In this document: positions 4,455 to 48,600 of the stretch, piece after piece | Layout: each line of letters begins with the position of its first letter | Position numbering within the stretch: position 1 is the stretch's first letter | Assembly: GCF_032118995.1 (NCBI RefSeq) | Contig: NC_092657.1 | Coordinates: forward strand, 3,903,891 to 3,967,890 | Length of the DNA: 64,000 bases | From: Asterias amurensis | Taxonomy: Eukaryota > Echinodermata > Asteroidea > Forcipulatida > Asteriidae | Reading direction: 5' to 3' | Notes under the pieces: model-generated | What the model was told of the DNA's origin: nothing | Databases searched by the model: none | What the model saw: only the letters and a program-made list of their open reading frames with translations | Translations under genes and position numbers: made by a program

Positions 4455-4829
4455 GATGAAGCTGTACTTTGATACTTTTGAATGCATATAAGATGTAACA
4501 AATCCTGAAGTGGACTGTATTTCAAAATGAAAATACAGAGTTAGATTTCAGTCAACCCTACACTCTCTGCCTACAGTATCTTGACGTCCTTTCATCGGTT
4601 GTTTCTTTACTGAAGTGATGAGGATCAGTGGAGTTTGATTATTTTGAAGGTACAGTGAAGTGTAGTGCGTCAGTGCTGTTACTAATGGTAACTGAAGGGT
4701 AACCCATGGTAACTAGTAAACAACAACACTTTGTACCATTTGATTGGTCCTTTCAGGCAATGTCATGAATATTTATTTTAGCGTTCGCTGGCAAGTCTAT
4801 TTCTTGACGAAACTGGACCTGACCTCCTG

Positions 4830-7984: not shown

Positions 7985-8965
7985 TTAAGTGACTTGGCGT
8001 AATTTCATGCTGCATTTCTTCAGGGAGTAGTAATGGCCTTTCCATAGATGCCATTGTATTCCCTGTCCTAGACTAACATCTGCATGTGGGTAGTATTTAC
8101 CATTAAGATGAGCCTATAAGCATGCGTTAAACCACCAGCCGCCACGATAAAGCTGTGCACAATTATTTGAGTGTAAATCATCATCCTGGTCCTTTGTTGT
8201 GAATGGTAATCCATTATGATAGTTCATTGAATCACCAGATGTACTCTGAGCATCATATGAACCAACATGGAGAGTGTACTTGTTACCTGTAACACTGAAC
8301 TCACCATAAGAAGCCCAAGATGTGTTGGACCCCCAATCTTCCATATCTACTCTGAGTTGCCATTGTCCTGATCCAGTAAGGTCACGCAGGATATCATTCC
8401 CTAACCAGAACTCATTCTGCAGATCACCAAACCCAGATTGGTATTCAGTCCAGTTACGGTAAAAGTCAACAGAGCCATCTTGTCTCCTCTGGAACACGAT
8501 CCAGCCTCCTCCATCTGTCTCCATATCACAGTAAACCTGTAACCCATCATCAGGTGGGAAGATTGTGTACACACCATTGCTGCGGTAACCAGCTTGATAC
8601 AACTCCAGACAAATGCTGTATCTTGTAGTGCTGGGTTGTGAAAATGACAAAGTGTCCAAGTTGTCATCATAGTAAGCAGTCCCTTGTTTCTCATCAAAGT
8701 CATCAGGGCTGTGAGCTCTGCTGCCATTATTCATCACACATGTACCTCTTATGATGTGATAGTTGAATGATGCACACTGTGGATCCATAGAGCAGTCTCG
8801 CCCACAGATTACAGGAGTAGATACAGTCTTCAACTGAAACACATGATTCAGTAAGGCTCGGTTTTCAGCCAAGTAGAAATCACCGATGAATTGTCGTGGA
8901 GTCTCACTCTGACAGGATTGTACCATCAGTATCAGATAAAGAGCTGTGGTGATAACTAGCATCAT
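7985..8965 (-). pseudogene. PAN/apple + fibrinogen-C secreted protein, copy 3 (one amber codon)
   Basis: Start ATG at 8963-8965; signal peptide MMLVITTALYLILMVQSCQS; apple module with CGRDCSMDPQC; fibrinogen-C domain from YSICLELYQAGYRSNG through NEFWLGND, GNKYTLHVGSYDAQSTSGD and NCAQLYRGGWWFNACL. A TAG at 8114-8116 stands where copy 2 has TGG (Trp). After it the frame stays open to a TAA at 7985-7987, encoding AHLNGKYYPHADVSLGQGI and a basic C-terminus. With this single codon restored the family length would be about 325 residues, so this is the least damaged copy. A recent null allele, an assembly error or stop readthrough cannot be told apart here. Confidence 0.88.
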
Positions 8966-9649
8966 GAAGCTGTCGATAGAATATAGAAGAGCAAGTGTTA
9001 GATTTTACTAAACCCTATGGTTATTTTGAAGGAACAGTAGTTCGTCAATACTGTTAATGGAAACCATAGTCACATGTAAATAAACTATTACTTGTAGTTT
9101 GTTCTCTCTGGCCTCATTCAGTACTTTAACATTCATGGACTCTGGAAGGGATAAATATTAAACCATTTATGATTCAATATTTGTAGTTTGCATATGAACG
9201 CCAACCATGCGATGTCTTCCTAGCTCTTTGCCTTGATAAAATATTGAGCACTTTTCAGTGAAGAAAAAAGAAGGTCAATGCAAATTGCTTAGCTTACATA
9301 TAGACAAATTTATTATTCATAACTACCCCAGACAGTTACTCTACTCCTATTGGTGGAGAGCGCGTCACGTGGGTGTGCATAAACCTTGCACACTGGAGCT
9401 CTGTTTATGCACACTGAGCTGGCTTCCGCGTGTCAGGCGCGCAAGATTATCACGCGGAATGCGCAAATCATATCTATCAGCCATTGATTCTATATCTATG
9501 CTATCAGCGCGTAATCTAAGCGTGCGCACATGTACACACAACCCACACGCCTCGAACAGATTCTTCACAAAGTTTTGGAAAACAATATTTCAAACCTCAA
9601 GTTTTCAATTGTTAAAGTGTCTATAACTGTATTTGTTTACGTTTTTTAA
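8966..9649. other. No gene seen; GC-richer patch at 9360-9540
   Basis: The stretch between FReD copy 3 and the next MITE has no recognisable protein. At 9360-9540 there is a patch with many CG dinucleotides (GCGCGTCACGTGGG, ACGCGGAATGCGC). It could be a dispersed repeat or the promoter of an unseen gene; nothing decides between them. Confidence 0.35.
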
Positions 9650-31159: not shown

Positions 31160-32837
31160 AAAGTAAGCACAGTAAATAGCAAAGTATCATTAAAAATATT
31201 CATTTTGTCTTGTAGTGCTCGATATCAACCAAGTTATTAATATAATTGTTGGAAATTAGGCTATTTTTTATAAAGTTTCTTTTTACGAAACTTTTGGAAG
31301 AAGGAATGTTTTTTAAATAAACATCTGGTTTTAGTGTTGTAACTTCTGTTATGAGCATTCGTATGAGCATAGACAAAATGTTTAGCATATTATTAAGTGT
31401 ACAGTTACTTTTTTGTACCAATAGTTGGTCTGTTTTTTTTACCAAATAATTAGTAACAAATTTAAACAAAACTTGTTTTTATTATCTCTTTTGAGCAATA
31501 TTTATGCAATAAATAATTGAGGAAAGAAGCTTATTGTCTGCCAACTTATTTATTGTCATTAAAATATTTACAGTCTACACAATTATGCATACCAAGTGAG
31601 AAGATTGTCTTCGACATTCACCAATAGTGTCCACTGCTTTAAATATGCCTTATCAAAGAAGTACTATACTGCCATGAGTACGATTATCAAAGATCAGTTC
31701 AGGCACCCCCAAGTTTTCTCAAAATATAAAACAGCTATTAAGTGTGTTTGTGTTTGACCCAAATTTAATAAAAACGCAAGACTATACCCTTTTGATTTGT
31801 TAAAATAGTTGACCCAAATTTGATAGAAAACACCTTTTTTTCCCTTCTTTTTTTTAAATCTGGCCTTCCGCTTGTGGTTGTTTAACATTTGAAATTTTTT
31901 AAATAAAAAACGCTGGACTTGAACAAACTTTACCGAAAAATAATTTATAACTGGCCACACTGGTTACCCACTAGTTCTGCTTCCCTCATAATACGAACAG
32001 CTTAGCAACATTTCCCCCAGACTTTTGCCCAAATCTTAATTTGTCAGTATGCCTAATCATCAAAGATGATTCAGGTGTGATAATGGTTATATATAGGGAG
32101 GGGGTTGAGAATGTCCGACATCCTAAAGAGAGCAAGACCCCTTCCTTAACCACTGACAAAAAACGACCCCTAGGTAAAAATTATGAAGTTTTATAAACTG
32201 CATTATTAATTTCGGCAACCCGGCTTATGGAATAATATAGTGATTTGGGAATGTTCAGGCTAAAGACTTTGTCAAGTTTGACAGTACTTTAACTCTCAGT
32301 AAATTTGCAGATTGATTCATTTGGTTACCGATCTGGTAATGTTCAACTGAAACCAATTTTTTTTTCTATTTTTTTTTCTTCATTTTGATCAGAGCTTATT
32401 CCTCCATGATCAGAGCAACTTAATTTGGGCTTAAGATGGTTATCTCAATTTCCAAAAGCGCGTCAATGATCACATCCCCTGAGAATTAGCCAAGATTTAA
32501 ATTAGAGTTAGACTGATTTATTCAGTCAACGTTAAAAAGTTAAAAACAAAAACATATAGAACTTACAATAACAAAATAACATTAAAAAACTAACGAAGAA
32601 GAAATCAGCAAAACCAGTCTTGAGCGCCCTCTCTAATTTTTTAACAACAAAAATAAGAAGTAACATTCGCTTTTGACACTGAGAAATTTAAAGCACTGAA
32701 TGTGGCATAAATCTTTAACAGTTGTAACCCTCCACCCCCTCGAAATAAACAACACAATAAATAAAACAATTATTTTTTTGTATTAATTAATTGATTTAAT
32801 TGTTTATGCCTTGCGCCCATTCTACGCTTGCGCCCAG
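31160..32837. other. AT-rich, no gene; short MITE scrap at 31575-31644
   Basis: The only recognisable item is a fragment of the GGCAGTGGACAC family's right end (ACCAATAGTGTCCACTGC). Long ORFs here are lysine/asparagine-rich and unsupported. Confidence 0.5.
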
Positions 32838-33400
32838 GTACTGGTGGGTGTCGGTGGGTTTACTGTAAACATCTGTGACAAGGCCATTAGGAGACTTGGT
32901 TATTGTCACATCTAGAAAGTTCACACTGGTGAGAGATTGTTCGGTAGTGAACTTTATGGTGGGGTGAAATGAGTTGATATGGTTAGTAAACTCATCCAAG
33001 CTGTCTTGGTCACCACACCAGATGGAGAAAATATCATCAATAAATCTCCACCAAACTAGTGGTCGGTTGGGGGCGGAGGACAGGAGTCTGTCCTCCAACT
33101 GAGACATGAATAGGTTAGCGTATGAGGGTGCCATTTTGGTACCCATGGCAGTACCCTGTACCTGTAGAAAATGCCTGTCAGAAAATGTGAAATTGTTCTT
33201 CATTAGAATGTGGCTCATGAGTTCCTTAGTATGACTCACTGAGGGGCGGGACTGATTACTAGCATTGAGGGCAGAGACACATGCACCGATGCCTTCATGA
33301 TGGGGTATATTAGTATACAGTGATGAAACATCAAAAGTAACCAAAATAGCAGAGTCAGGTATTTGGTGCTTGACCTCATCTAGTTTGTTATATATATTTG
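32796..33400 (-). pseudogene. Penelope-like reverse transcriptase fragment, left arm
   Basis: The frame runs from NKLDEVKHQIPDSAILVTFD through SSLYTNIP (motif A), GTAMGTKMAPSYANLFM (motif B), RFIDDIFSIW (motif C) and NFLDVTI to KPTDTHQY, where the palindrome limit cuts it. The remaining residues to 32796 come from flanking sequence. The N-terminal part is lost at a TA microsatellite, and there is no GIY-YIG endonuclease. This covers the fingers/palm only, so no activity is expected, although its catalytic residues are kept. Confidence 0.9.
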
Positions 33401-33770
33401 TGGTTTATTATTTGATATATATATATATATATATAATTTTTTTTTTAGAGGGGGGGGGGGGTGGTTGAAGTGTACCGAAGGCTTTAGAAGTTAGATTACT
33501 TGGTGGCGCAAATTTGAGTGAGATATTTTCAACAATGCAATAAGGTCACTTTTTAATAATCTACCTACACGTTATTTATTCCTACATTAATAATAAGCTG
33601 AGAAACAACAAAAACTAGACCTCATATATTACCTTTAGTTCTTTCAACTTTGCGCTAAATCATTTCAAATTAAACAAACGTAAGGCTACTTGGTTTAATT
33701 ACTACAGTTAGTTACAGTGTAAGCGTTTATTCATCACTTTTCATAATATGAGGACGAACGTGGGATAATT
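33401..33770. other. TA microsatellite, G run and unique arm sequence
   Basis: (TA)n at about 33415-33435, a T run and a 13-base G run lie beside the RT fragment. Their mirror is at 46960-47010. Confidence 0.7.
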
Positions 33771-34059
33771 GTGTGCCCACGTTCTTCCTAGAAAAAAATA
33801 AAATACGCCACATCGGGGTCGACCCAGGGAAGCTAAACGAACGCACCAGTGATTCAAGCCTTCGATTCTCGCATTTCAAATCATTCCGCGAGATCTTGCG
33901 GGAGCCAGTTTGCCCCTTTGATCTTGGACAGGCACCGGTGATTGGAACCAGCTAAAGCAACCGACAGGTACCCAATTTCCACGCTACGCGAAATAAACAT
34001 CTAATGAGTAGTAGAGGTCTTGGTACTCGACGGCTTGATGCCGTGACGCGATTTTCAAA
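33771..34059 (+). promoter_or_regulatory. Promoter-like region upstream of the arm gene, left
   Basis: Rich in CG dinucleotides compared with the surroundings, without repeats, and almost identical to its mirror at 46362-46650. It ends CGCGATTTTCAAAATGGCCA, which resembles a YY1/initiator-type start (inference). Confidence 0.35.
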
Positions 34060-34529
34060 ATGGCCACCAGCCATGCTTGTGAAGTTGTCAACACCGTGGA
34101 TATACTTAGGATGATTTGGTGTGATTTAATGTCTCTATGGGTAAGCTTTATCATGCAGCTTATTTGAGTTAATAATGTAGAATAGGATGAAGGTCTCGTG
34201 GAAGGCGTGCAACCACCTAGTTTGTCATAAAACGGGCAATTCTTGTCGCAATTTTATTCCACCTTCATCATGCTCAACATAAACAACGGCAATCCGGAAG
34301 TAGCAGTAACGTTAGAGCATAGGTCAATAGGTCAATACCCCCATTGCATTGTCATTGCCAACTTGCCGTCAATCAGATCGTGGATGAAGAATTCCTCCAT
34401 TATCTGATGAAACAATCGACTTTTCTGTGTAGTTCTCAGATTATCTACCACTCCTACTTATATCGGCCACTTCTACATGTTTCTATGTCAGTTTTTGTTT
34501 ACATGTTATGTAACACTGAGCTGTCGTAA
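34060..34529 (+). CDS. Two-exon gene candidate, left arm copy (77 codons)
   Basis: Exon 1, 34060-34140, starts in a good context (CAAAATGG) and encodes MATSHACEVVNTVDILRMIW then CDLMSLW. It ends at a TGG followed by GTAAGC. After a 236-bp intron, the acceptor GTCAATCAG leads to exon 2 (34377-34529), in the same phase: IVDEEFLHYLMKQSTFLCSS, then a hydrophobic stretch with SVFVYML, and TAA. The protein is not recognised. It could be the truncated start of a longer host gene caught in the duplication. The right arm carries the same structure. RNA evidence is lacking. Confidence 0.42.
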
Positions 34530-34689
34530 ACTGTTTACCAACCAAAATGACCGGTGCTCTGATATTCGGAGTCGTAGGCCTACCATCCAAAAGAATTGAT
34601 TTGCAGATTGCCTTTCTCATATCAGGTTGTTAAATCTAAAACTGGTTTGCCACCTATACTGCCAAATGGTGTGTTAAGACAAAATAATT

Positions 34690-35175
34690 TTTTTAATCGT
34701 CTGAAATTTCATCCAGATGTGTGGTGTGATGGAGGGCGAGGTGCACAGAAAAACCTTGGTCTGAGTCGTTTACCTTAGCAACTTTTTGAGATTGTCTAGT
34801 TTTCGATGCCCCCAAATCAAGATTAGAATTAATATTAATTTGAGGCCCTTCCAATTGTTCCAGCAATCTGTAATCCGTAGAGCGTCTTTTGCACATAAAT
34901 TAAATTTTGAGGCAAATCTGAGAGAACATTTTTTGAGGGTGAAAAAAACCGTCAAGTTATACCCAGTGCCGTTTTCTCAAAAATCGGCCGAAAAAATTGT
35001 GAAAAAACCGTCAAGTTATACCCAGTGCCGTTTTCTCAAAAATCGGCCGAAAAAATTGTGTTTTCAAAATCGCCTGAAAATTAATACATAGGCCTAAGTG
35101 TACACCATTAGAGTGCGACAAATCTTGGTTTTAGTCGTCTACCATAGTAACTTTTTGATATAATTGTTTTTATTG
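34690..35175. repeat. Solitary relatives of the 323-bp satellite, left arm
   Basis: CATCCAGATGTGTGG to AACTTTTTGAGATTG, then GAGGCAAATCTGAGAGAACA and AAAAATCGGCCGAAAAAATT, mirror the unit at 39.5-41.4 kb. A 59-base block containing CCGTCAAGTTATACCCAGTG is doubled here (about 34948-35060) but single in the right arm. Confidence 0.75.
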
Positions 35176-35439
35176 CCTGATTTTCGATATAACAATGTCT
35201 CAAATAATAATTGTATCAAACTCAATAAAAAAGAATTGTACCATCCCGGCGAGTACCCACCAAGAATACTGGTGGAAATGAAACGATAGTACCCGCCGTC
35301 ATGTTGATCCCAGCTAGCCTACTAAAGATTCAGCCACCCAACCCCAATACCCCGCTACCCTTTCCCCAGCGACTGACAACCCCCAATTCCCATCGAAATG
35401 CCCGACCAACTTCCCCAGTGAACTAATTTTCTATACCTA

Positions 35440-36120
35440 CAGCATGTGCCTTCGACTCAAATAATTATTTTTCAAGTCCCCTATTGTGCCTATGTTTCCT
35501 TGCAAACTATTATGCGCCATATACTTACAGCGTGTGCCTTCCATCCACTCACCAATTTTTTAAATCACAACCAAAGAGTCCCCTGTCTATCCGTCAGTAA
35601 AGCGTATGCCTTCCACTCTCAAATTATTTACCAAGTCCAAAGCAAGGATTTCCCTATGCCATTGTACCATGCGTGCCATTTCCCCATTAATTAAACTAAT
35701 TGTCTGTCTTTATGCCTACAGCGTGTGCCTTCAACTCGTCGAATACTTTTTAAGTCCGAAATCAAGAGCCCACTATCTACTACCAATACCCATCAGTAAA
35801 GCGTATTATGCCTTCCACTCGCAAATTATTTACCAAGTCCAAAGCAAGGATTTCCCTATGCCATTGTACCATGCGTGCCATTTCCCCATTAATTAAACTA
35901 ATTGTCTGTCTTTATGCCTACAGCGTGTGCCTTCAACTCGTCGAATACTTTTTAAGTCCGAAATCAAGAGTCCACTATCTACTACCAATACCCGTCAGTA
36001 AAAGCGTATTATGCCTTCCACTCGCAAATTATTTACTAAGTCCAAAGCAAGGACTTCCCTATGCCATAGTACCATGCGTACCCCTTTTCCCATTAAACTA
36101 TACAGTGTGTAGATTTTAAC
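35440..36120. repeat. 200-bp tandem repeat, expanded in the left arm
   Basis: GTATGCCTTCCACTC or GTATTATGCCTTCCACTCGC, with CAAATTATTTACCAAGTCC and AGCAAGGATTTCCCTATGCC, occurs three times (about 35600, 35805, 36010). The right arm has a single unit near 44830-44900. Confidence 0.8.
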
Positions 36121-36439
36121 TCAAATAATGTTTTAAGTCCGAACCAATGAGTTTCCCATGCCTATGTAACCAGCCCACAACTTGTGCATTTCACTCGAAA
36201 TTACTAAGTATAAAGCACTGATTTTACTATGCCATAGCATCGTGTGTAAAGTGTTCCACTCGCAAATTATATACCAAATATGAAGTATAATATACTAAGT
36301 ACAAAGCATTGATATTCCCATACCATAGTGTCCTATGAAAAGTATTCAACTCACAAATTATATACTAAGTATAAAGCACTGAAATCCCGTGCCATAGCTT
36401 TCTGTGTAAAGTATGAACCGAAGGTTTATCAGGTCTAAA

Positions 36440-36650
36440 ATGCGAATTATCCTGGGGGGGACCCAAGTGGGTGTCGTGGGTAGGTGTCGGCCTCCCAAGC
36501 AAAGGATCCCCGGTTCGAACCCCGGTGGTGGCAGCGCTGCTGCCGTCCGAGAAGTCTTGACCCACCAGACAGTGGCACACACCGCGCAGTGGCACTCACC
36601 GCTAGCACTCGCTGAGGAAAGAAACTTAAAACTTAAAACTTAAAACGAAC
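36440..36650 (+). mobile_element. tRNA-derived SINE, left arm
   Basis: A tRNA(Gly)-like head (CGTGGGTAGGTGTCGG, GCCTCCCAAGC with CCC at the anticodon position, and the B box GGTTCGAACCC) is followed by a GC-rich body and a simple tail of three ACTTAAA units (36625-36645). Confidence 0.75.
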
Positions 36651-36722
36651 CTATGCTCTTTTTTATGTAAGTTTAAAGATTTTTGTAAAAAAAACATTTT
36701 TAAAACGTCTCAAACTTTTCTG

Positions 36723-36789
36723 AAGCTGGATTCGATCCCGGGACCCTCCGGTCCAGAGACCAGAGCCCTTCCATTGAGCCACGTCTCCT
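36723..36789 (-). tRNA. tRNA-like unit L2
   Basis: A box TGGCTCAATGGAAGGGC and B box GGATCGAATCC. The loop shows CTG at the anticodon place, but the acceptor arm does not pair, so it is probably not a working tRNA. It lies beside the SINE. Confidence 0.5.
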
Positions 36790-36858
36790 CTTACTTCATT
36801 TGCGTTCGAGTTTAATTTTAAACCTTCGTATGACAAACTTTTAATTAAAACGTAGTAA

Positions 36859-36930
36859 AAAAACACCCGGGAATCGAACTCCGTACCATTGGGTGTAGAG
36901 TCCGGAGCCCTTCCATTGAGCCACGTCTCC
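36859..36930 (-). tRNA. tRNA-like unit L3, CTA at the anticodon position
   Basis: The D arm pairs at all four positions (GCTC/GGGC) with GG in the loop. The variable loop has the standard five bases. The T loop is TTCGATT. The anticodon loop reads CTCTACA, but only two or three of five stem pairs form. A T run follows within about a dozen bases. Confidence 0.5.
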
Positions 36931-37000
36931 TCTTACTTTTATTGCGTTCCAGTTTAATGTTATACCTTAGAATGAACAACTTTAAATCAAAACGTAGTAA

Positions 37001-37071
37001 AAGAACACCCGGGAATCGAACTCCGTACCATTGGGTGTAGAGTCGGGAGCCCTTCCATTGGGCCACTACTA
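37001..37071 (-). tRNA. tRNA-like unit L4, CTA
   Basis: As L3, with TGGCCCAATGGAAGGGCT and GAGTTCGATTCCC; terminator TTCTTTT. Confidence 0.5.
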
Positions 37072-37243
37072 CTCTTACTTCATTTTCGTTCGAGTTTAAT
37101 GATATACCCTAGAATGAACAATTTTAAATCAAAACGTATTGTAGCTTACGCCTTCCACTCGCAAATTATTTACCAAGTGTAAAGCAAGGATTTCCCTATG
37201 CCATAGGATACCGCGCAAACCAATGTTCTCAAGCATACTAAAA

Positions 37244-37316
37244 GAACACAGATCGGGAATCGAACCCCGTACCATTGGGTGTAGAGCCCGGAGCCCTTCC
37301 ATTGGGCCACTTCTAC
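37244..37316 (-). tRNA. tRNA-like unit L5, CTA
   Basis: TGGCCCAATGGAAGGGCTCC, loop GCTCTACACC, B box GGGTTCGATTCCC-like (ACGGGGTTCGATTCCCG). Confidence 0.5.
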
Positions 37317-37482
37317 TCTTACTTCGTTTGCGTTCGAGTTTAATGTTGTACCCTAGAATGAACAATTTTAAATCAAAACGTATTATTTGCCTCCCACTCG
37401 CAAACTATTTACCAAGTGTAAAGCATGGATTTCCCTATACCATAGGGAACCGCGTAAACCAATGTTCTCGAGCGTAGAAAAA

Positions 37483-37556
37483 GAACACATATCGGGATTC
37501 GAACCCCGTACCATTGGATGTAGAGCCCGAAGCCCTTCCATTGGGCCACTAGTACT
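37483..37556 (-). tRNA. tRNA-like unit L6, CTA
   Basis: TGGCCCAATGGAAGGGCTTC, B box GGGGTTCGAATCCCG, followed by TTCTTTTTCTACGC. Confidence 0.5.
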
Positions 37557-37725
37557 CTTACATTATTTGCATTCGAGTTTAATTATATACCCTAGAGTGA
37601 ACAACTTTATATTAAAACATATTGTAGCTTATGCCTTCCACTCGCATTAATTATTGATTAGGTGAAGCAAGGATTTCCCTATGCCGTGGGTACCGCGTAA
37701 ACCAATGTTCTTCAACGCAGAAAAA

Positions 37726-37797
37726 GAACACACACCGGGGTTCGAACCCAGCACCGTTGGCTTCAGAGTCCAGAGCCCTACAACTGTGCCACTTTCA
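37726..37797 (-). tRNA. tRNA-like unit L7, CTG (Gln-like)
   Basis: TGGCACAGTTGTAGGGCTC, GGACTCTGAAGCC and GGGTTCGAACCCCGG. The anticodon arm resembles tRNA-Gln(CUG) but pairs imperfectly. Confidence 0.5.
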
Positions 37798-37970
37798 TTC
37801 TTGATAACAACAGGTTCGAGTTTAAAGATAAACCGTAGAATGAATTCAACTTTAAATCAAAACGTTATAGCGGGTGCCTTCCTCTCGCATGTTATTTATT
37901 AGGTATAAAGCAAGGATTTCCCTATGCCATAGGGTTCCGCTTAAACCAATGTTCTTACGCGTAGAAAAAG

Positions 37971-38041
37971 ACACAAGCCGGGGCTCGAACTCAGTACCTT
38001 TGCGCTCAGAATCCGGAGCTCTACCACTGGGCCACCGCTCT
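37971..38041 (-). tRNA. tRNA-like unit L8, CTG
   Basis: TGGCCCAGTGGTAGAGCTC is the best A box in the array. The loop is TTCTGAG and the B box GAGTTCGAGCC. Confidence 0.5.
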
Positions 38042-38209
38042 TCTTGAGAACAATGGGCTCGAGTTTTACTATATACCTTAAAGTGGACAACTTTAAACCC
38101 AAACGTATATAGCGAGTGCCTTCCACTCGCGTGTTTTACAAGGATTTCCCGATGCCATAGTACCCCCGGTAATGTAAAGATTAGGACTGGGTACAACAGA
38201 GTTGATGCA

Positions 38210-39464
38210 TGCACAAATTCGACGGTGTTTGGGATAAATAAAATGCACGGGACTAAAACGGGTCCGTTAAACTGAGAAAATATAAGCGATTGAAAAAGTC
38301 TCTAGAAGCGGGGCAAATCGGGCGAATCGGGGGTGGGGGGGGGGGGCTTATTCAAACACAGGGCGTTATGTAGCCAACAAAACAATTAATTATTATATGT
38401 AATAAATTATTGACAATTTTAAGTAATTGAACTCTGAAAAAACGGCACGGATTCTTTTTAATGTTTTTATTTTATTTATTATTTTATTATGGAGTTTGTA
38501 CATTTCACATTAAACTGCTCTCTTTAAATAAAAACAAACAAATAAATAATACAGCCAATTTACACACTCAAATTTTAGCAGCAAAAAAAATGTGTACAAA
38601 ATATTGTAATTAAATTATTACATAATTAAAACGTCGAGTGAATGTGTTGTGTAAATAATACAAATGTTAATTGGCGGTGTTATATACTTATATTTATTTA
38701 TTTCATTTCTCGGGAATAAAAAAGTAAAATATTGCACATTAATTACGTTAATTTCTTTTTTAAATACAGAAGAGAAACTTAAATACAGAAACAGCTGGAG
38801 CCCGAAGGTTTGCATTGAAGAAACACTGAGTTTCCGTCTAGAGTCTCTCCTCTCCAACTGACTATGAAGCTACCATAGTCACTATGTCAGACTTGGCTCA
38901 TGCTAAGCAAAGTAAACATTGCCAAACACTGATGTAATATATACTATGTACTTGACAAATCCGCAATGAATCATTACATACAATAAGAAAAATCCCTGAA
39001 TTTTCAAAGGAAAAAAAAAATATATATATATATATACTGAATAACAGAGAATTAACTAGGGAGCGATAAACACACCATCGCACTTAGTGTCGTGAACAGT
39101 AGACCTACATACAAGAGCATACCAGCTAAATGTAGTGTATGCTACGATGCCATAAACATAGAAATCACAGACATTGCTATTACCGGTGTTCTTGAGAGGT
39201 CTGAAAGACAATATAGAATCAGAATATACGAATAAACATGAGTCTTGCCTGAACAGTTTCCTGAAGATTAAAACCACACCAAAATGCTCTAAATATCGTC
39301 CACGGTGACAGCCAGAGTCAACTGCACGCTTGGACACCGTTTTGAATACACGTGTACGCGGCAAATTACTTGGGACGAAGCATTGGTTATAAGACCAACT
39401 ATAGGGTACCCGACTGTTAGTTGTCTTGCCGCAGTATCTTGCTTTTTAGGCATCGTTAAATCCG
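38210..39464. repeat. Inner left arm, diverged
   Basis: It mirrors 41385-42550 with many substitutions and small indels (for instance CTGTCACCGTGGACGATATT on the minus strand against CTGTCTCCGTGGACGATATT). There is a G run at 38330-38346 and a TA tract at 39020-39036. No gene is seen. Confidence 0.8.
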
Positions 39465-41384
39465 AAATGAGGCATTATCTCAAAATGTAGCCATCGTAGA
39501 CGACTAAAACCAAGATTTTCCTGCTCCTCGCCCCCAATTACACCTAGGTATGAAATTTCAGGCGATTTGGAAGACAAAAATTTCGGCCGATTTTTGGAAA
39601 AAACGACAAGGGGGTAAGCTTGACGTTTTTTCACCCTCGGAAATTTGTTCTCTCCGAATTGCCTCAAAATTTAACCAAAGGAAGTTCGTCATGTGTAAAA
39701 GGCAGTCTCCAAGTTACAGGTTGCTGGAACAATAGGATGGGTCTCAAATTTTCATTTTAATCTGGATTTTAAACCGTCGTACTATCCGAATTAAGGCATT
39801 ATCTCAAAAAGTAGCCATCGTAGACGACTGAAACCGAGATTTTCCTGATCCACGCCCTCTATTACACCTAGGTATGAAATTTCAGGCGATTTGAAAGACA
39901 AAAATTGCGGCCGATTTCTGAAAAACGACAAGGGGGGTAAGCTTGACGTTTTTTCAGCCTCGGAAACATTTTCTCTCCGAATTGCCTCAAAATTTAACCA
40001 AAGGAAGTTCGTCATGTGTAAAAGACAGTCTCCAAGTTACAGGTTGCTGGAACAATAGGATGGGTCTCAAATATTCATTTTAATCTGGATTTTAAACCGT
40101 CGTACTATCCGAATTAAGGCATTATCTCAAAAAGTAGCCATCGTAGACGACTGAAACCAAGATTTTCCTGCTCCACGCCCTCTATTACACCTAGGTATGA
40201 AATTTCAGGCGATTTGAAAGACAAAAATTTCGGCCGATTTCTGAAAAAACGACAAGGGGGTAAGCTTGACGTTTTTTCACCCTCGGAAATTTTTTCTCTC
40301 CGAATTGCCTCAAAATTTAACCAAAGGAAGTTCGTCATGTGTAAAAGACAGTCTCCAAGTTACAGGTTGCTGGAACAATAGAATGGGTCTCAAATATTCA
40401 TTTTAATCTGGATTTTAAACCGTCGTACTATCCGAATTAAGGCATTATCTCAAAGAGTAGCCATCGTAGACGACTGAAACCAAGATTTTCCTGCTCCACG
40501 CCCTTTATTACACCTAGGTATGAAATTTCAGGCGATTTGAAAGACAAAAATTGCGGCCGATTTCTGAAAAAACGACATGGGGGTAAGCTTGACGTTTTTT
40601 CACCCTCGGAAATTTTTTCTCTCCGAATTGCCTCAAAATTTAACCAAAGGAAGTTCGTCATGTGTAAAAGACAGTCTCCAAGTTACAGGTTGCTGGAACA
40701 ATAGGATGGGTCTCAAATATTCATTTTAATCTGGATTTTAAACCGTCGTACTATCCGAATTAAGGCATTATCTCAAAGAGTAGCCATCGTAGACGACTGA
40801 AACCAAGATTTTCCTGCTCCACGCCCTTTATTACACCTAGGTATGAAATTTCAGGCGATTTGAAAGACAAAAATTGCGGCCGATTTCTGAAAAAAACGAC
40901 AAGGGGGGTAAGCTTGACGTTTTTTCACCCTCGGAATTTTTTTCTCTCCGAATTGCCTCAAAATTTAACCAAAGGAAGTTCGTCATGTGTAAAAGGCAGT
41001 CTCCAAGTTACAGGTTGCTGGAACAATAGGATGGGTCTCAAATATTCATTTTAATCTGGATTTTAAACCGTCGTACTATCCGAATTAAGGCATTATCTCA
41101 AAAAGTAGCCACCGTAGACGACTGAAACCAAGATTTTCCTGCTCCACGCCCTCTATTACACCTAGGTATGAAATTTCAGGCGATTTGGAAGACAAAAATT
41201 TCGGCCGATTTTTGAAAAAACGACAAGGGGGGGGGGACACGTTTTTTCACCCTCGGAAATTTTTTCTCTCCGAATTGCCTCAAAATTTAACCAAAGGAAG
41301 TTCGTTATGTGTAAAAGACAGTCTCCAAGTTTAAGACTGCTGGAACAATGGGATGGCTTTTAAATTCATTTTAACCTCTCTTTT
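39465..41384. repeat. 323-bp satellite, six units, at the palindrome centre
   Basis: Starts at 39469, 39793, 40116, 40439, 40762 and 41087 (GGCATTATCTC). Shared text includes AGTAGCCATCGTAGACGACT, TATGAAATTTCAGGCGATTT and CAGTCTCCAAGTTACAGGTT. The minus-strand frames of 74 codons beginning MTNFLWLNFEAIRRE recur in three units simply because the units repeat. The last unit is the most diverged. Confidence 0.95.
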
Positions 41385-42600
41385 TGGAGGCACTGCTATA
41401 TCAAGAAGTAAGCAACATTGCGACAAGAACACGAATAGTCGGGTACCTTATAGTTGGCCTTATAACCAGTAACCAGTGATTTACCGCGTACACATATGTA
41501 TTCAAAAAGATCTCCAACCATGCAGTTGACTCTGGCTGTCTCCGTGGACGATATTTAGAGCCTTTTGATGTAGTTTTAATCTTCAGGCAACTGTTCAGGC
41601 AAGACTAATGTGTACTCGTTTATTCTGATTCAATATAAAGTTGTTCAAACCCATGGTAAAAGCAATGTTTGTGATTTGTATGTTTCTATTAGCTACAGGT
41701 CTACACTTTATCTAGCTTGTATGCTTGTGTATGTACGTGTAGGTCTACGTTGCACAACACAATGGGCGATGGTGTGTTATTGCTCAATATAATTCTCTGT
41801 TAGTCAGTAGGACCATATAGGTTGCTGTTTTCCCGTTGATTATTCGGGGATTAAAACAAAACGGCCAGAATTGGTGGTGAGATCGTAAAATTGTTCCAAT
41901 CTAATTATTCACTGCATACAATTTGTATAGCCCATCTAACATTGGCAATGCTTTGATGTTGTACCCTGTGTAGGATTTGAAACTTTGCATGGTGGAAATA
42001 CGACATGGAAAGGTTTGTGGTAACACCATGCAATGACTATCATCTCTAAATATGGGGTGGTTCTGAAAAAAACCGTCTATGTAAATTTTGACGTTTCGAT
42101 CAGTATTCTCTGATCGCCTTTGGAGAAAAACAAAATTCTTGTAAAAAGAAAAAAAAAATTGCTGCTTAAAATAAATTTGAATGTGTCAATTATTGTCTGA
42201 ATTCTTTTTATATTGATTTAAAGGGCAGTCATAATGTGAAATGTAGAAACTCAAACATTAAACAAATATTGAATTAAAACAAAAAAGAATACTCCGTCCC
42301 GTGCCTTATTTAGAGTTCAATTTACTTAGATTATCAAATATTTATTACATATAATAATAAATGGTTTTGTTACTCGCATTGTTACGCCCCCCTGTTTGAA
42401 TATGCCCCCCTCCCGTCGCCCGCTTCTAGAGACTTTTTCAATCGCTGATATTTTTTGTTATATTTTCTGATATTTTCAGTTTAATAGACCCGTTTTAGTC
42501 CCGTGCATTTTATTTATCTCAAACACCGTCGAGTTTGTGCATGCATCAACTCTGTTGTACCCAGTCCAAACCTTTACATTACCTGGGGTACTATGGCATC
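41385..42600. repeat. Inner right arm, diverged, with an extra insertion
   Basis: Mirror of the inner left arm. At about 41965-42115 it carries sequence without a left counterpart: CTTTGCATGGTGGAAATACG, GTGGTAACACCATGC, then ACGTTTCGATCAGTATTCTC. This is related to the dispersed repeat at 11222 and 30100. Confidence 0.75.
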
Positions 42601-42708
42601 AGGAAATCCTTGTAAAACACGCGAGTGGAAGGCACTCGCTATACACGTGATTATTTAAAGTTGTCCACTCTGAGGTTTATAATAAAACTCGAACCCATTG
42701 TTCTTAAG

Positions 42709-42779
42709 AAGAGCGGTGGCCCAGTGGTAGAGCTCCGGATTCTGAGCGCAAAGGTACTGAGTTCGAGCCCCGGCGTGTG
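42709..42779 (+). tRNA. tRNA-like unit R8, CTG
   Basis: Mirror of L8, with TGGCCCAGTGGTAGAGCTCC and GAGTTCGAGCCCCGG; TCTTTTTCTACGC follows. Confidence 0.5.
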
Positions 42780-42952
42780 TCTTTTTCTACGCGTAAGAAC
42801 ATTGGTTTAAGCGGAACCCTATGGCATAGGGAAATCCTTGCTTAATACCTAATAAATAACATGCGAGTGGAAGTCACCCGCTGTTACGTTTTGATTTAAA
42901 GTTGAATTCATTCTAAGGTTTATATTTAAACTCGAACCTTTACTAATGAAGA

Positions 42953-43023
42953 AGGACAGTGGCACAGAGGTAGGGCTCTGGACTCTGAAGCCAAAGGTGC
43001 TGGGTTCGAACCCCGGGGTGTGT
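42953..43023 (+). tRNA. tRNA-like unit R7, CTG
   Basis: Mirror of L7, TGGCACAGAGGTAGGGCTCT. It has a better D loop (AGAGGTAG) than L7. Confidence 0.5.
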
Positions 43024-43198
43024 TCTTTTTCTGCGTTGAAGAACATTGGTTAACGCGGTACCCTACGGCATAGGGAAATCCTTGCTTAACCCCTAATCAA
43101 TAATTAATGCGAGTGGAAGGCATAAGTTACAATATGTTTTGATTAGAAATTGTTCACTCTAGGGTATGTAACTAAACTCAAACGCAAATGAAGTAAGA

Positions 43199-43268
43199 GT
43201 AGTAGTGGCCTAATGGAAGGGTTCCGGGCTCTACACCCAATGGTGCGGGGTTCGAACCCCGGTCTGTG
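43199..43268 (+). tRNA. tRNA-like unit R6, CTA
   Basis: TGGCCTAATGGAAGGGTTCC, loop GCTCTACACC, T arm GGGGTTCGAACCCCGG. Confidence 0.5.
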
Positions 43269-43437
43269 TTCTTTTTCTACGCTTGAGAACATTGGTTTAC
43301 GCGGTTCCCTATGGCATAGGGAAATCATTGCTTTACACTTGCTAAATAATTTGCGAGTGGGAGGCAAATAATACGTTTTGAATTAAAATTGTTCATTCTA
43401 GGGTATATCATTAAACTCGAACGCTAATGAAGTAATA

Positions 43438-43508
43438 GTAGTAGTGGCCCAATGGAAGGGCTCCGGGCTCTACACCCAATGGTACGGAGTTCGATTCCCG
43501 ATCTGTGT
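43438..43508 (+). tRNA. tRNA-like unit R5, CTA
   Basis: TGGCCCAATGGAAGGGCTCC; GAGTTCGATTCCCG; TTCTTTTAG. Confidence 0.5.
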
Positions 43509-43681
43509 TCTTTTAGTATGCTTGAGAACATTGGTTTGCACGGTATCCTATGGCATAGGGAAATCCTTGCTTTACACTTGGTAAATAATTTGCGAGTGGA
43601 AGGCATAAGCTACAATACGTTTTGATTTAAAATTGTTCATTCTAGGGTATATCATTAAACTCGAACGAAAATGAAGTAAGA

Positions 43682-43750
43682 GTAGTAGTGGCCCAATTGA
43701 AGGGCTCCCGACTCTACACCCAATGGTACGGAGTTCGATTCCCGTGTGTT
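43682..43750 (+). tRNA. tRNA-like unit R4, CTA
   Basis: TGGCCCAATTGAAGGGCTCC has lost one G of the D loop. Two bases are missing after the B box relative to L4. Confidence 0.45.
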
Positions 43751-43822
43751 CTTTTACTACGTTTTGATTTAAAGTTGTTCATTCTAAGGTATAACATTAA
43801 ACTGGAACGCAATAAAAGTAAG

Positions 43823-43893
43823 AGTAGACGTGGCTCAATGGAAGGGCTCCGGACTCTACACCCAATGGTACGGAGTTCGATTCCCGGGTGTTT
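43823..43893 (+). tRNA. tRNA-like unit R3, CTA
   Basis: TGGCTCAATGGAAGGGCTCC, loop ACTCTACACC, GAGTTCGATTCCCGGG, then TTTTTTT. Confidence 0.5.
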
Positions 43894-43964
43894 TTTTACT
43901 ACGTTTTAATTAAAAGTTTGTCATACGAAGGTTTAAAATTAAACTCGAACGCAAATGAAGTAAG

Positions 43965-44035
43965 AGGAGACGTGGCTCAATGGAAGGGCTCCGGACTCTA
44001 CACCCAATGGTACGGAGTTCGATTCCCGGGTGTTC
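43965..44035 (+). tRNA. tRNA-like unit R2b, CTA (extra unit absent from left arm)
   Basis: Nearly identical to R3 in the tRNA-like part, and to the R2 unit in its flank. This shows that a unequal exchange added one unit of about 142 bp after the arms formed. Confidence 0.55.
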
Positions 44036-44107
44036 TTTTACTACGTTTTAATTAAAAGTTTGTCATACGAAGGTTTAAAATTAAACTCGAACGCAAATGA
44101 AGTAAGA

Positions 44108-44173
44108 GGAGACGTGGCTCAATGGAAGGGCTCTGGTCTCTGGACCGGAGGGTCCCGGGATCGAATCCAGCTT
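44108..44173 (+). tRNA. tRNA-like unit R2, CTG
   Basis: Mirror of L2: TGGCTCAATGGAAGGGCTCT, GGATCGAATCC. Confidence 0.5.
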
Positions 44174-44234
44174 CAGAAAAGTTGGAGACGTTTTAAAAAT
44201 GTTTTTTTAATAATTTTTTTTAAACTTATATAAA

Positions 44235-44445
44235 AAAGAGCATAGGTTCGTTTTAAGTTTTAAGTTTAAAGTTTCTTTCCTCAGCGAGTGCTAGCGGTGA
44301 GTGCCACTGCGCGGTGTGTGCCACTGTCTGGTGGGTCGAGACTTCTCGGACGGCAGCCGCGCTGCCACCACCGGGGTTCGAACCGGGGACCCTTTGCTTG
44401 GGAGGCCGACACCTACCCACGACACCCACTTGGGTCCCCCCCAGG
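44235..44445 (-). mobile_element. tRNA-derived SINE, right arm
   Basis: Mirror of 36440-36650, with the same Gly-like head and TTTAAGT tail (one unit altered). It was therefore present before the arms duplicated. Confidence 0.75.
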
Positions 44446-45339
44446 ATAATTCGCATTTTAGACCTGATAAACCTTCGGTTCATACTTTACACAGAAAGCT
44501 ATGGCACGGGATTTCAGTGCTTTATACTTAGTATATAATTTGTGAGTTGAATACTTTTCATAGGACACTATGGTATGGGAATATCAATGCTTTGTACTTA
44601 GTATATTATACTTCATATTTGGTATATAATTTGCGAGTGGAACACTTTACACATGATGCTATGGCATAGTAAAATCAGTGCTTTATACTTAGTAATTTCG
44701 AGTGAAATGCACAAGTTGTGAGCTGGTTACATAGGCTTGGGAAACTCATTGGTTCGGACTTTAAACATTATTTGAGTTAAAATCTACACACTGTATAGTT
44801 TAATGGGAAAAGGGGTACGCATGGTACTATGGCATAGGGAAGTCCTTGCTTTGGACTTGGTAAATAATTTGAGAGTGGAAGGCATACGCTTTACTGACGG
44901 ATAGACAGGGGACTATTTGGTTGTGATTTAAAAAATTGGTGAGTGGATGGAAGGCACACGCTGTAAGTATATGGCGCATAATAGTTTGCAAGGAAACATA
45001 GGCACAATAGGGGACTTGAAAAATAATTATTTGAGTCGAAGGCACATGCTGTAGGTATAGAAAATTAGTTCACTGGGGAAGTTGGTCGGGCATTTCGATG
45101 GGAATTGGGGATTGTCAGTCGCTGGGGAAAGGGTAGCGGGGTATTGGGGTTGGGTGGCTGAGTCTTTAGTAGGCTAGCTGGGATCAACATGACGGCGGGT
45201 ACTATCGTTTCATTTCCACCAGTATTCTTGGTGGGTACTCGCCGGGATGGTACAATTCTTTTTTATTGAGTTTGATACAATAATTATTTGAGACATTGTT
45301 ATATCGAAAATCAGGCAATAAAAACAATTATATCAAAAA

Positions 45340-45760
45340 GTTACTAAGGTAGACGACTAAAACCAAGATTTGTCGCACTCTAATGGTGTACACTTAGGCT
45401 TATGTATTAATTTTCAGGCGATTTTGAAAACACAATTTTTTCGGCCGATTTTTGAGAAAACGGCACTGGGTACAACTTGACGGTTTTTTTCACCCTCAAA
45501 AAATGTTCTCTCAGATTTGCCTCAAAATTTAACCAAAGAAAGTTCTTTATGTGCAAAAGACGCTCTATACGGATGACAGATCGCTGGAACAATTGGAAGG
45601 GCCTCAAATTAATATTAATTTTAATCTTGATTTGGGGGCATCGAAAGTTGCTAAGGTAAACGACTCAGACCATGGTTTTTCTGTGCACCTCGCCCTCCAT
45701 CACACCACACATCTGGATGAAATTTCAGACGATTAAAAAAATTATTTTGTCTTAACACAC
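45340..45760. repeat. Solitary relatives of the 323-bp satellite, right arm
   Basis: Mirror of 34690-35175 but with the 59-base block single. TTTCGGCCGATTTTTGAGAA and TTTGCCTCAAAATTTAACCA are close to the central units. Confidence 0.75.
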
Positions 45761-45899
45761 CATTTGGCAGTATAGGTGGCAAACCAGTTTTAGATTTAAC
45801 AACCTGATATGAGAAAGGCAATCTGCAAATCAATTCTTTTGGATGGTAGGCCTACGACTCCGAATATCAGAGCACCGGTCATTTTGGTTGGTAAACAGT

Positions 45900-46361
45900 T
45901 TACGACAGCTCAGTGTTACATAACATGTAAACAAAAACTGACATAGAAACATGTAGAAGTGGCCGATATAAGTAGGAGTGGTAGATAATCTGAGAACTAC
46001 ACAGAAAAGTCGATTGTTTCATCAGATAATGGAGGAATTCTTCATCCACGATCTGGCAAGTTGGCAATGACAATGAAATGGGGTATTGACCTATTGACCT
46101 ATGCTCTAACGTTACTGCTACTTCCGGATTGCCGTTGTTTATGTTGAGCATGATGAAGGTGGAATAAAATTGCGACAAGAATTGCCCGTTTTATGACAAA
46201 CTAAGTGGTTGCACGCCTTCCACGAGGCCTTCATCCTATTCTACATTATTAACTCAAATAAGCTGCATGATAAAGCTTACCCATAGAGACATTAAATCAC
46301 ACCAAATCATCCTAAGTATATCCACGGTGTTGACAACTTCACAAGCATGGCTGGTGGCCAT
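45900..46361 (-). CDS. Two-exon gene candidate, right arm copy (77 codons)
   Basis: Exon 1 is 46281-46361 and exon 2 is 45900-46052, both in the same phase as the left copy. The intron is 228 bases: the acceptor region reads CTTGCCAG, having lost the GTCAAT present on the left, yet still ends in AG. The retained start codon, donor, acceptor, phase and stop in both arms fit constraint or recent duplication equally well. The product is not recognised. Confidence 0.42.
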
Positions 46362-46650
46362 TTTGAAAATCGCGTCACGGCATCAAGCCGTCGAGTACCA
46401 AGACCTCTACTACTCAGTAGATGTTTATTTCGCGTAGCGTGGAAATCGGGTACCTGTCGGTTGCTTTAGCTGGTTCCAATCACCGGTGCCTGTCCAAGAT
46501 CAAAGGGGCAAACTGGCTCCCGCAAGATCTCGCGGAATGATTTGAAATGCGAGAATCGAAGGCTTGAATCACTGGTGCGTTCGTTTAGCTTCCCTGGGTC
46601 GACCCCGATGTGGCGTATTTTATTTTTTTCCAGGAAGAACGTGGGCACAC
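46362..46650 (-). promoter_or_regulatory. Promoter-like region, right arm
   Basis: Mirror of 33771-34059 with only a few substitutions (for example CCTAG to CCTGG and ACCCAATTT to ACCCGATTT on the minus strand). Confidence 0.35.
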
Positions 46651-46974
46651 AATTATCCCACGTTCGTCCTCATATTATGAAAAGTGATGAATAAACGCTT
46701 ACACTGTAACTAACTGTAGTAATTAAACCAAGTAGCCTTACGTTTGTTTAATTTGAAATGATTTAGCGCAAAGTTGAAAGAACTAAAGGTAATATATGAG
46801 GTCTAGTTTTTGTTGTTTCTCAGCTTATTATTAATGTAGGAATAAATAACTTGTAGGTAGATTATTAAAAAGTGACCTTATTGCATTGTTGAAAATATCT
46901 CACTCAAATTTGCGCCACCAAGTAATCTAACTTTTAAAGCCTTCGGTACACTTCAACCACCCCCACCCCCCCTC

Positions 46975-47010
<36 letters not shown>

Positions 47011-47012
<2 letters not shown>

Positions 47013-47541
47013 CAAACTAGATGAGGTCAAGCACCAAATACCTGACTCTGCTATTTTGGTTACTTTTGATGTTTCATCACTGTATACTAATATACCCCAT
47101 CATGAAGGCATGAGTGCATGTGTCTCTGCCCTCAATGCTAGTAATCAGTCCCGCCACTCAGCGAGTCATATTAAGGAACTCATGAGCCACATTCTAATGA
47201 AGAATAATTTCACATTTTCTGACAGGCATTTTCTACAGGTACAGGGTACTGCCATGGGTACCAAAATGGCACCCTCATACGCTAACCTATTCATGTCTCA
47301 GTTGGAGGACAGACTCCTGTCCTCCGCCCCCAACCGACCACTAGTTTGGTGGAGATTTATTGTTGATATTTTCTCCATCTGGTGTGGTGACCAAGACAGC
47401 TTGGATGAGTTTATTAACCATATCAACTCATTTCACCCCACCATAAAGTTCACTACCGAACAATCTCTCACCAGTGTGAACTTTCTAGATGTGACAATAA
47501 CCAAGTCTCCTAATGGCCTTGTCACAGATGTTTATCAGTAA
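47011..47541 (+). pseudogene. Penelope-like reverse transcriptase fragment, right arm (catalytic Asp lost)
   Basis: Mirror of the left fragment with the same motifs A and B. Motif C reads RFIVDIFSIW, so the first catalytic Asp is Val. An extra base after GATGTTTAT gives a stop at 47539-47541, before KPTDTHQY. The left copy has neither change. Confidence 0.9.
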
Positions 47542-47563
47542 ACCCACCGACACCCACCAGTAC

Positions 47564-47640
47564 TCTCTTAACCTTTGACCCCTGAACTTTGACCTACCTT
47601 TTAACCCCTGAACTTTGACCTTTGACCCCTCTTAAAAAAC
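47564..47640. promoter_or_regulatory. Cluster of nuclear-receptor-like half sites
   Basis: TTTGACCTTTGACCCC and repeated GAACTTTGACC text form several AGGTCA-type half sites with one-base spacing (DR1) on the minus strand. The stretch itself is a short direct repeat, so simple repetition may explain the motif. Confidence 0.35.
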
Positions 47641-47849
47641 GTTTACCTCACGTTTGTACAGTCTATAGGTTTTGTTTATTCCATTAAAACTATAGACTCA
47701 AATAAAGGACTCTTATAATACAAGTGGTTTCTGTTATATCAATTTCTTTATTTCTTACTCTTGTTTAAGAAATACAACAAATGAACTTTATTACAACTGT
47801 TATAAGTTTTACATTCAAAATTAACTGTAACATTAAAGTAAAATTAGAC

Positions 47850-48600
47850 GTATCAAGAGAAGTTGTTAGACGTTAGAAGAGAAGTTGTTAGCCATTTGGA
47901 GAGAAGTTGTTAGATGTAAGGAGAGAAGGTGTTGGCTGTAAGGAGAGAAGTGGTTGGACGTAAGGAGAGAAGTTGTTAGACGTTTGAAGAGAAGTGAATA
48001 AGATGCAAGGAGAGAAGTTGTCAGATATGAAGAGAAGTCAATTACACATGAGAGAAATTGTCAGACTTAAGGAGAGAAGTTGTTAGACGTATGAAGAGAA
48101 GAAGTGAACTACACGCAAGAATAGAAGTTGGAGAGAAGTTGTTAGACGTATAGAGGGAAGTTGTCAGATGTATGAAGAGAAGTGAATTAGACATAAGGAG
48201 AGAATTTAGTAGATGTATGAAGAGAAGTGAATAAGACGCAAGGAGAAAAGTTGTTAGACGTATGAAACGAAGTGAATGAGACATATGAAGAGAAGTGAAT
48301 TAGACTAGACGTTAGAAGAGAAGTTGTTAGACGTTTAAAAAGATGTGAATTAGACATCTGAAGAGAAGTGAATTAGACGTAAGAAGAGTTGTTAGATGAA
48401 TGGAGAGAAGTTGTCACACGTGAGGAGAGAAGCGAATTTGATGTATAGAGAGAAGTTGTTAGAAGTATGGAGAGAAGTTGTCAGCCATGAAGAAGTGAAT
48501 TAGACGTGAGCAGAGTAATTGTCAGACGTAAGGAGAGAAGTTGTTACACAGATGAAGAGAAGTGAATAAGGAGTAAAGAGATAAGTTGTGAGAGGTATGG
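47850..48600. repeat. Minisatellite, about 22-bp unit, block 1
   Basis: Units vary around GAGAGAAGTTGTTAGACGTA and GAAGAGAAGTGAATTAGACG, in irregular order. There is strong purine bias on the plus strand. The minus-strand frames inside are repeats. Confidence 0.9.

Follow-up and report, generated by a model that had tools for sequence, protein, structure and literature searches.

The window analysed here is a stretch of 64,000 nucleotides of the Asterias amurensis genome (C10:3903891-3967890; the genome searched comprises 491,506,623 bases in 23 contigs). It carries a 14.7-kb palindrome (32838-47563), both ends of which lie in copies of one fragment of a Penelope-like reverse transcriptase (RT). 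The palindrome, already proposed in the initial annotation, was recovered by self-BLAST as kilobase-sized inverted matches well above chance level: 32838-35001 with 47563-45431 (96% counting gaps), 34999-35690 with 45493-44800 (98%), 35992-37138 with 44900-43758 (96%) and 36755-38575 with 43999-42173 (90%). The left arm (WL, 32838-39440, forward strand) has its inverted match at 47563-41410, which delimits the right arm (WR, 41410-47563, reverse strand). Both arms start with GTACTGGTGGGTGTCGGTGGG, which encodes KPTDTHQY when read outward. They form an inverted pair but are not uniform. Their divergence is 0.94% over 33480-36100, 1.8% over 36100-37200, 7.2% over 37200-38300 and 34% over 38300-39440, part of this last stretch being hardly alignable; it is 20% over 39018-39440, the better-aligned portion of the inner arm. 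The centre (39460-41374, forward strand) is not palindromic and consists of 5.9 direct copies of a 323-bp unit identified by Tandem Repeats Finder.

Several features are present in both arms. The RT fragment (551 bp) lies at 32838-33388 on the reverse strand in WL (RVT_1, 1.9e-10; residues 446-628 of an 854-aa ORF, L009) and at 47012-47563 on the forward strand in WR, where it differs by 8 substitutions and one 1-bp insertion. An insert of about 105 bp was delimited by arm comparison at 33746-33849 (forward) and 46572-46675 (reverse). By its arrangement only, it resembles a miniature inverted-repeat transposable element, and it also has matches as inverted pairs on C1, C8, C12 and C14. Finally, units of 142/243 bp containing a degenerate tRNA-like core form arrays at 36755-38130 (reverse) and, by tandem-repeat analysis, at 42616-44141 (forward). 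The array unit scores 22.4 bits with the tRNA covariance model, below the cut-off of 29, and is thus not a tRNA gene by this measure; neither Rfam at the gathering threshold nor ARAGORN with the bacterial code (tRNA genes) gave any match. Among the matches listed, all relatives of these units are at loci of the family described below. No gene was recognised in the arms, the Pfam scan having covered the RT piece alone.

The reverse transcriptase fragment and the two limits

WL and WR end within 2 bp of one same base of the Penelope-like RT, as had been reported; counting a 2-bp AG match to the Penelope-like sequence would move the left limit from 32838 to 32836. Cuts bound the RT piece on either side: the N-terminal one at 33388, next to a (TA)n stretch, and the palindrome limit further along the ORF. 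The earlier description of a 5'-truncated RT is therefore correct for the inner side and not for the palindrome limit. An intact relative (L009), whose 854-aa ORF carries both RVT_1 and GIY-YIG domains, is found elsewhere in the genome. The window holds residues 446-628 only and not the complete RT and GIY-YIG ORF of a Penelope-like element: a search of the window with the C-terminal part of the ORF gave a best E value of 5.3 and one with the N-terminal part gave none (positive control 1.8e-112). The Penelope-like protein had no match among solved structures. An inverted insertion of the type formed by Penelope-like pseudo-long terminal repeats (pLTRs) was rejected, the RT piece being devoid of element ends.

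A genome search with 32838-33200 yielded 41 matches, including both window copies. This is a lower bound, since the shorter RT piece of the sister palindrome described below was missed. Of the remaining 39 matches, 21 are held by the 20 stretches read, and 18 lie beyond that reading. Because all RT copies read in register with the limit base run on through it (19/19), this base is no element end. The RT piece is a passenger, and the coincidence of the two limits suggests a single cut RT end as the origin of both arm ends. In the twentieth stretch (L016; C12:4050752, forward, and 4054491, reverse), two Penelope-like copies are inverted at a different offset and span about 4.1 kb end to end over their matched parts.

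No likeness was found between the left and right sides over the 200 bases beyond each limit (left ...CGCCCAG, right TCTCTTA...), so that the outside flanks are indeed wholly different. Nor do the palindrome limits show any target duplication, in agreement with the first inspection. The terminal GTAC was rejected as such a duplication because it is native RT sequence in other copies.

The left flank (31667-32837, forward strand) shows patchy homology to C10:2806433-2808594 (72-85%), about 18 kb outside the right arm of the sister palindrome, and to C16:599247-599731 (two patches, 74% and 86%), 0.8 kb from the arm of a third palindrome. The last clear patch ends at 32759, followed by a weak 15-bp match near 32818. 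As this flank is homologous to the neighbourhoods of two other palindromes, the left side looks in place, with its outer arm apparently lost. The right flank begins with a repeat (47564-47860, forward strand) that has 22 other matches. In the five stretches read, the first base of this repeat is preceded on C10 and C11 by other, mutually similar sequence and on C16 by yet another; a pair on C11 falls short of that base. Since the repeat has other sequence ahead of its first base elsewhere, the right joint is taken as a probable breakpoint, as is the left one. The right-flank repeat also occurs, with relatives on C11, C16 and C21, in divergent inverted pairs separated by some 0.3-0.9 kb, and left- and right-flank repeats are found 15-22 kb apart on C11, C16 and C17.

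A family of inverted-repeat loci

The palindrome is one of at least 27 related loci distributed over four chromosomes, window included (at least 13 on C10, 6 on C16, 2 on C4 and 6 on C2). Relatives of the centre flank (39040-39440) are found on C10, C16 and C4 only (29 matches; 25/25 candidates scored). Those of the arm stretch 33480-34280 lie on C10, C16 and C4, with more distant ones on C2 and single weak ones on C5 and C19 (best 40 of 646 candidates); its matches on C1, C8, C12 and C14 correspond to the 105-bp insert, two weak ones on C14 to the insert edge. The tRNA-like array unit has 303 matches and, among those listed (best 40 of 144 candidates), all are on C10, C16, C4 and C2. Opposite-orientation matches 12-17 kb apart suggest that, besides the window, the members at C10:2.77-2.79 Mb (P2), C16:0.60-0.615 (P3), C16:1.884-1.896 (P4) and C2:20.468-20.481 are palindromic, as perhaps is C2:20.165-20.181.

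The window, P2 and P3 were read through (their arms are named P2L/P2R and P3L/P3R), and P5 on C2 was compared over about 0.6 kb. P3 is palindromic without any RT seen in it, and its arms are 2-7% apart; in a distant C2 member the two arms are 86% identical to each other over 254 bases and 79% to those of the window. These P3 arms and the short C2 comparison suggest that other members may have been homogenised too. The outer limits differ among the members read. Literature searches on echinoderm palindromes and on inverted repeats or satellite DNA of Asterias and starfish showed no paper on the family among those listed; the family may itself be undescribed, although its absence from the literature is unproven.

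P2 lies about 1.15 Mb from the window on C10, in inverted orientation, and the identity of P2R to the window arms is 94.5% and 97%. Within P2R, but not P2L, are some 350 bp of the RT, corresponding to window 33040-33388, together with the 105-bp insert. Here the RT is found where family sequence of about 530 bp would otherwise be, and P2R runs outward past it into sequence that is also found in P2L (81%) and is common to P3; the loci C10:2.21 and C10:3.34 (Mb) carry the P3 outer arm as well. Because the window RT is 202 bp longer than that of P2R, the captured piece was probably once longer and would have been cut at different points in the two palindromes. The insert is present in WL, WR and P2R. 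Five arms have the site without it: P2L, P3R (which has 34 bp of other sequence), C10:4.57, C10:2.21 and C10:3.34. The P3L and C16:0.99 arms break off at this site. The RT has no match in any of these seven arms, as far as they were read. The insert site (33746-33849), being also the point where P3L and the arm at C16:990376 break off and where P3R carries 34 other bases, may be a recurrent breakpoint or insertion spot.

These observations bear on the initial proposal of a foldback-like mobile unit ending in a captured RT, that is, a foldback-type transposon (FB/TU/Galileo/Tetris-like) whose ends lie in a captured Penelope-like element and which moves as a unit. The long inverted repeats, internal tandem arrays and middle domain do resemble foldback anatomy, and long terminal inverted repeats with internal tandem repeats are present. 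However, no target duplication flanks the limits, neither of the 8-10 bp reported for Tetris nor of any other length, and the terminal GTAC is ordinary RT sequence. In the 20 stretches read around other RT copies, which hold 21 of the 39 matches mentioned above, the RT has no family arm next to it. The RT piece of P2 ends at another base, with P2 continuing past it. Instead of termini shared at unrelated sites, ends at the RT base occur in the window only among the loci read, family matches are confined to segments of few chromosomes, and the left flank resembles the P2 and P3 neighbourhoods. A search for copies with the same limits, as had been recommended, found none among the loci read. The captured-retroelement foldback unit was consequently rejected as extremely improbable, and the palindrome probably does not represent a novel class of mobile element.

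The mosaic right arm

In an alignment of six arms, WR was compared with WL, P2R and P2L at diagnostic sites. WL is of the P2R type throughout (1.2-2.7% from P2R in four segments). WR is a mosaic: over 33850-36100 (tandem stretch excluded) it is 1.26% from P2R and 6.0% from P2L, whereas the distances over 39018-39440 are 20.1% to P2R and 2.25% to P2L, and those over 38300-39440 are 33.8% and 6.1%, respectively. At the 122 sites of 33740-36100 where P2R and P2L differ, WR has the P2R base in 110 cases and agrees with WL in 121; at 324 such sites of 38100-39441, WR has the P2L base in 279 and WL the P2R base in 313. Outer WR is thus closer to its partner than to P2L (0.94% versus 6.0%) and inner WR closer to P2L than to its partner (2.25-6.1% versus 20-34%), a pattern of palindrome conversion. 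Such a mosaic implies copying between arms or loci, and a P2R-type exterior combined with a P2L-type interior indicates that the outer right arm of an old palindrome would have been overwritten, RT included. The comparison supports a copying of outer WR, with RT and insert, from WL or from a P2R-type source (the sister palindrome). Two RT substitutions are common to WL, WR and P2R relative to 21 other copies (one of them also in 2/21), and private changes number 5 in WL and 4 in WR. These changes indicate that the RT-bearing outer arm was copied soon after RT capture.

The most likely explanation, which we hold with reasonable confidence, is that the window carries an old member of the long inverted-repeat family in which the outer right arm was overwritten, the common limit being a rearrangement breakpoint. 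On the above comparisons, recombination or repair synthesis carried sequence from one arm to the other, or into both from a single source of the P2R type, over the outer 3.5-5 kb or so of the right arm. The P2R-type template may have ended in a break at the RT base. A foldback, or strand invasion, in the region of inner inverted homology could then have led to outward copying until the template was exhausted, and this run-off would leave both arms ending at the same base. End joining would finally have attached the two ends to the left and right flanks, the outer arm being lost on the left side (18 kb occupy that place in P2 and 0.8 kb in P3). Fold-back duplications at breaks (PMC3907307) and annealing of inverted repeats at breaks in yeast (PMC6103520) are described.

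One recent event duplicating the entire 14.7 kb in inverted form, with a foldback at the centre and a start at the RT break, would also give outer arms about 99% identical with one common cut end, and spacer-bearing foldback duplications are described in human genomes (PMC3907307). Instead of a similar divergence along the whole arm, we observed 0.94% in the outer part and 20-34% in the inner part. Because the inner arms are that far apart and match the P2 arms one by one, and because P3 is palindromic without RT, the palindrome, judging from these alignments, did not start at the RT end. The whole-palindrome duplication is very unlikely and was rejected on inner-arm divergence. The suggestion of an inverted duplication started at the RT end can be retained for the outer 3.5-5 kb of one arm but not for the whole palindrome.

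Ordinary two-sided gene conversion between arms that already ended at the same RT base from an earlier event would homogenise the outer arms, and conversion of this kind is well known (for example in human Y palindrome P6). However, P2 has the RT in one arm only and the common limit would still lack a cause, which makes this alternative unlikely, although less so than the others weighed here. An assembly artefact, joining haplotypes or copies of one arm, could be envisaged from the near-identical outer arms and from the 14.7-kb unit size, close to the library size of about 15 kb given for the probable source assembly (PMC10625585). Against it, the centre is asymmetric, the inner arms are distinct and match the P2 arms, the arms differ by substitutions and tandem copy number, and a 551-bp repeat would be short for misjoining HiFi reads of about 15 kb. 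We regard it as highly improbable.

Several points weigh against the overwriting of an old outer right arm, or complicate it. Between 36.1 and 38.1 kb WR is mixed (69 P2R-type and 44 P2L-type of 114 sites), in a region blurred by tandem repeats, and 11 of the 122 outer sites are P2L-type in WR (10 in WL). The run-off step has no direct trace; a coincidental double deletion, or a template switch halting at a pre-existing junction, could take its place. The divergence from the sister is 1.2-2.7% in the left half but 15-28% in the left flanks. Exchange between loci was therefore probably involved, and copying in either direction would fit. P2L may have lost RT and insert through conversion from an empty unit. 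Moreover, 18 of the 41 RT matches lie outside the reading.

The copying model offers no explanation for the spacing of the family on C10, where the 13 loci span 0.75-6.3 Mb with gaps of 0.22-0.70 Mb, more evenly than random (13/13 loci; P 0.0008 for the minimum gap, 0.0004-0.0005 for the coefficient of variation, CV). On C16 and C2 evenness appears only without the outliers at 4.30 and 28.13 Mb; with these kept, P for the minimum gap is 0.051 and 0.49, and the CV (0.38 and 0.997) is not low. One might imagine an undescribed system of evenly spaced inverted-repeat 'stations' with tRNA-like (A/B-box-like) arrays, along the first 6.3 Mb of C10 and on parts of C16, C4 and C2, homogenised by exchange within and between loci and perhaps serving as boundary or chromosome-organising sites, of which the window copy would be one conversion event frozen with a retroelement tag; this is a speculative and improbable reading. 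The TFIIIC-site boundaries of fission yeast offer a parallel. Agreement with the consensus (six sources) is 0.88-0.96 in A-box-like columns, 0.82-0.87 in B-box-like columns and 0.82-0.89 in the upstream part. Given the similar upstream values, there is no extra constraint on the B-box-like part, and at most a slight one on the A-box-like part.

If C10 is Asterias amurensis chromosome 10, its family loci (0.75-6.3 Mb) lie beside, not inside, the candidate sex-determining region at 7-12 Mb reported in PMC11757944. Elsewhere in the window, ORFs with a fibrinogen C-domain and a PAN domain occur at 3690-4547 and 8114-9004, and most of the 135 matches of one fibrinogen C-domain ORF are on C10.

Comparison with known systems

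What seemed a new mobile element becomes a mapped example of copying between arms in a family of invertebrate palindromes, in which a retroelement cut serves as marker of a broken end. Penelope-like elements with GIY-YIG (PMC3846280) are the source of the 551-bp fragment, and the intact relative L009 persists in the genome. Unlike elements with inverted pLTRs, the fragment is internal (residues 446-628) and without element ends, and pLTRs do not make the palindrome.

The sea-urchin TU element, cited in PMC4079207, is a foldback transposon. Members of this group (FB, Galileo, TU, and Tetris of PMC4079207) share with the palindrome its inverted repeats, internal tandem repeats and middle domain. 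In contrast, no target duplication, shared termini or scattering was seen here, and the outer limits vary among the members read. As in the fold-back duplications of PMC3907307 and the yeast inverted-repeat annealing of PMC6103520, one broken end probably sets the arm limit and joins unrelated DNA. Unlike them, only the outer part of an existing palindrome would have been copied, and no dicentric or terminal deletion is in evidence.

The palindromes of the human Y and X and of the willow sex chromosome differ in that the present ones make up a family with at least 27 members across four chromosomes, only some showing both arms, with arms made mostly of tandem arrays and probable exchange between loci. 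They nevertheless share with the window long inverted arms around a spacer, insertions in both arms, and a part of the arm that is closer to its partner than to the matching sister arm.

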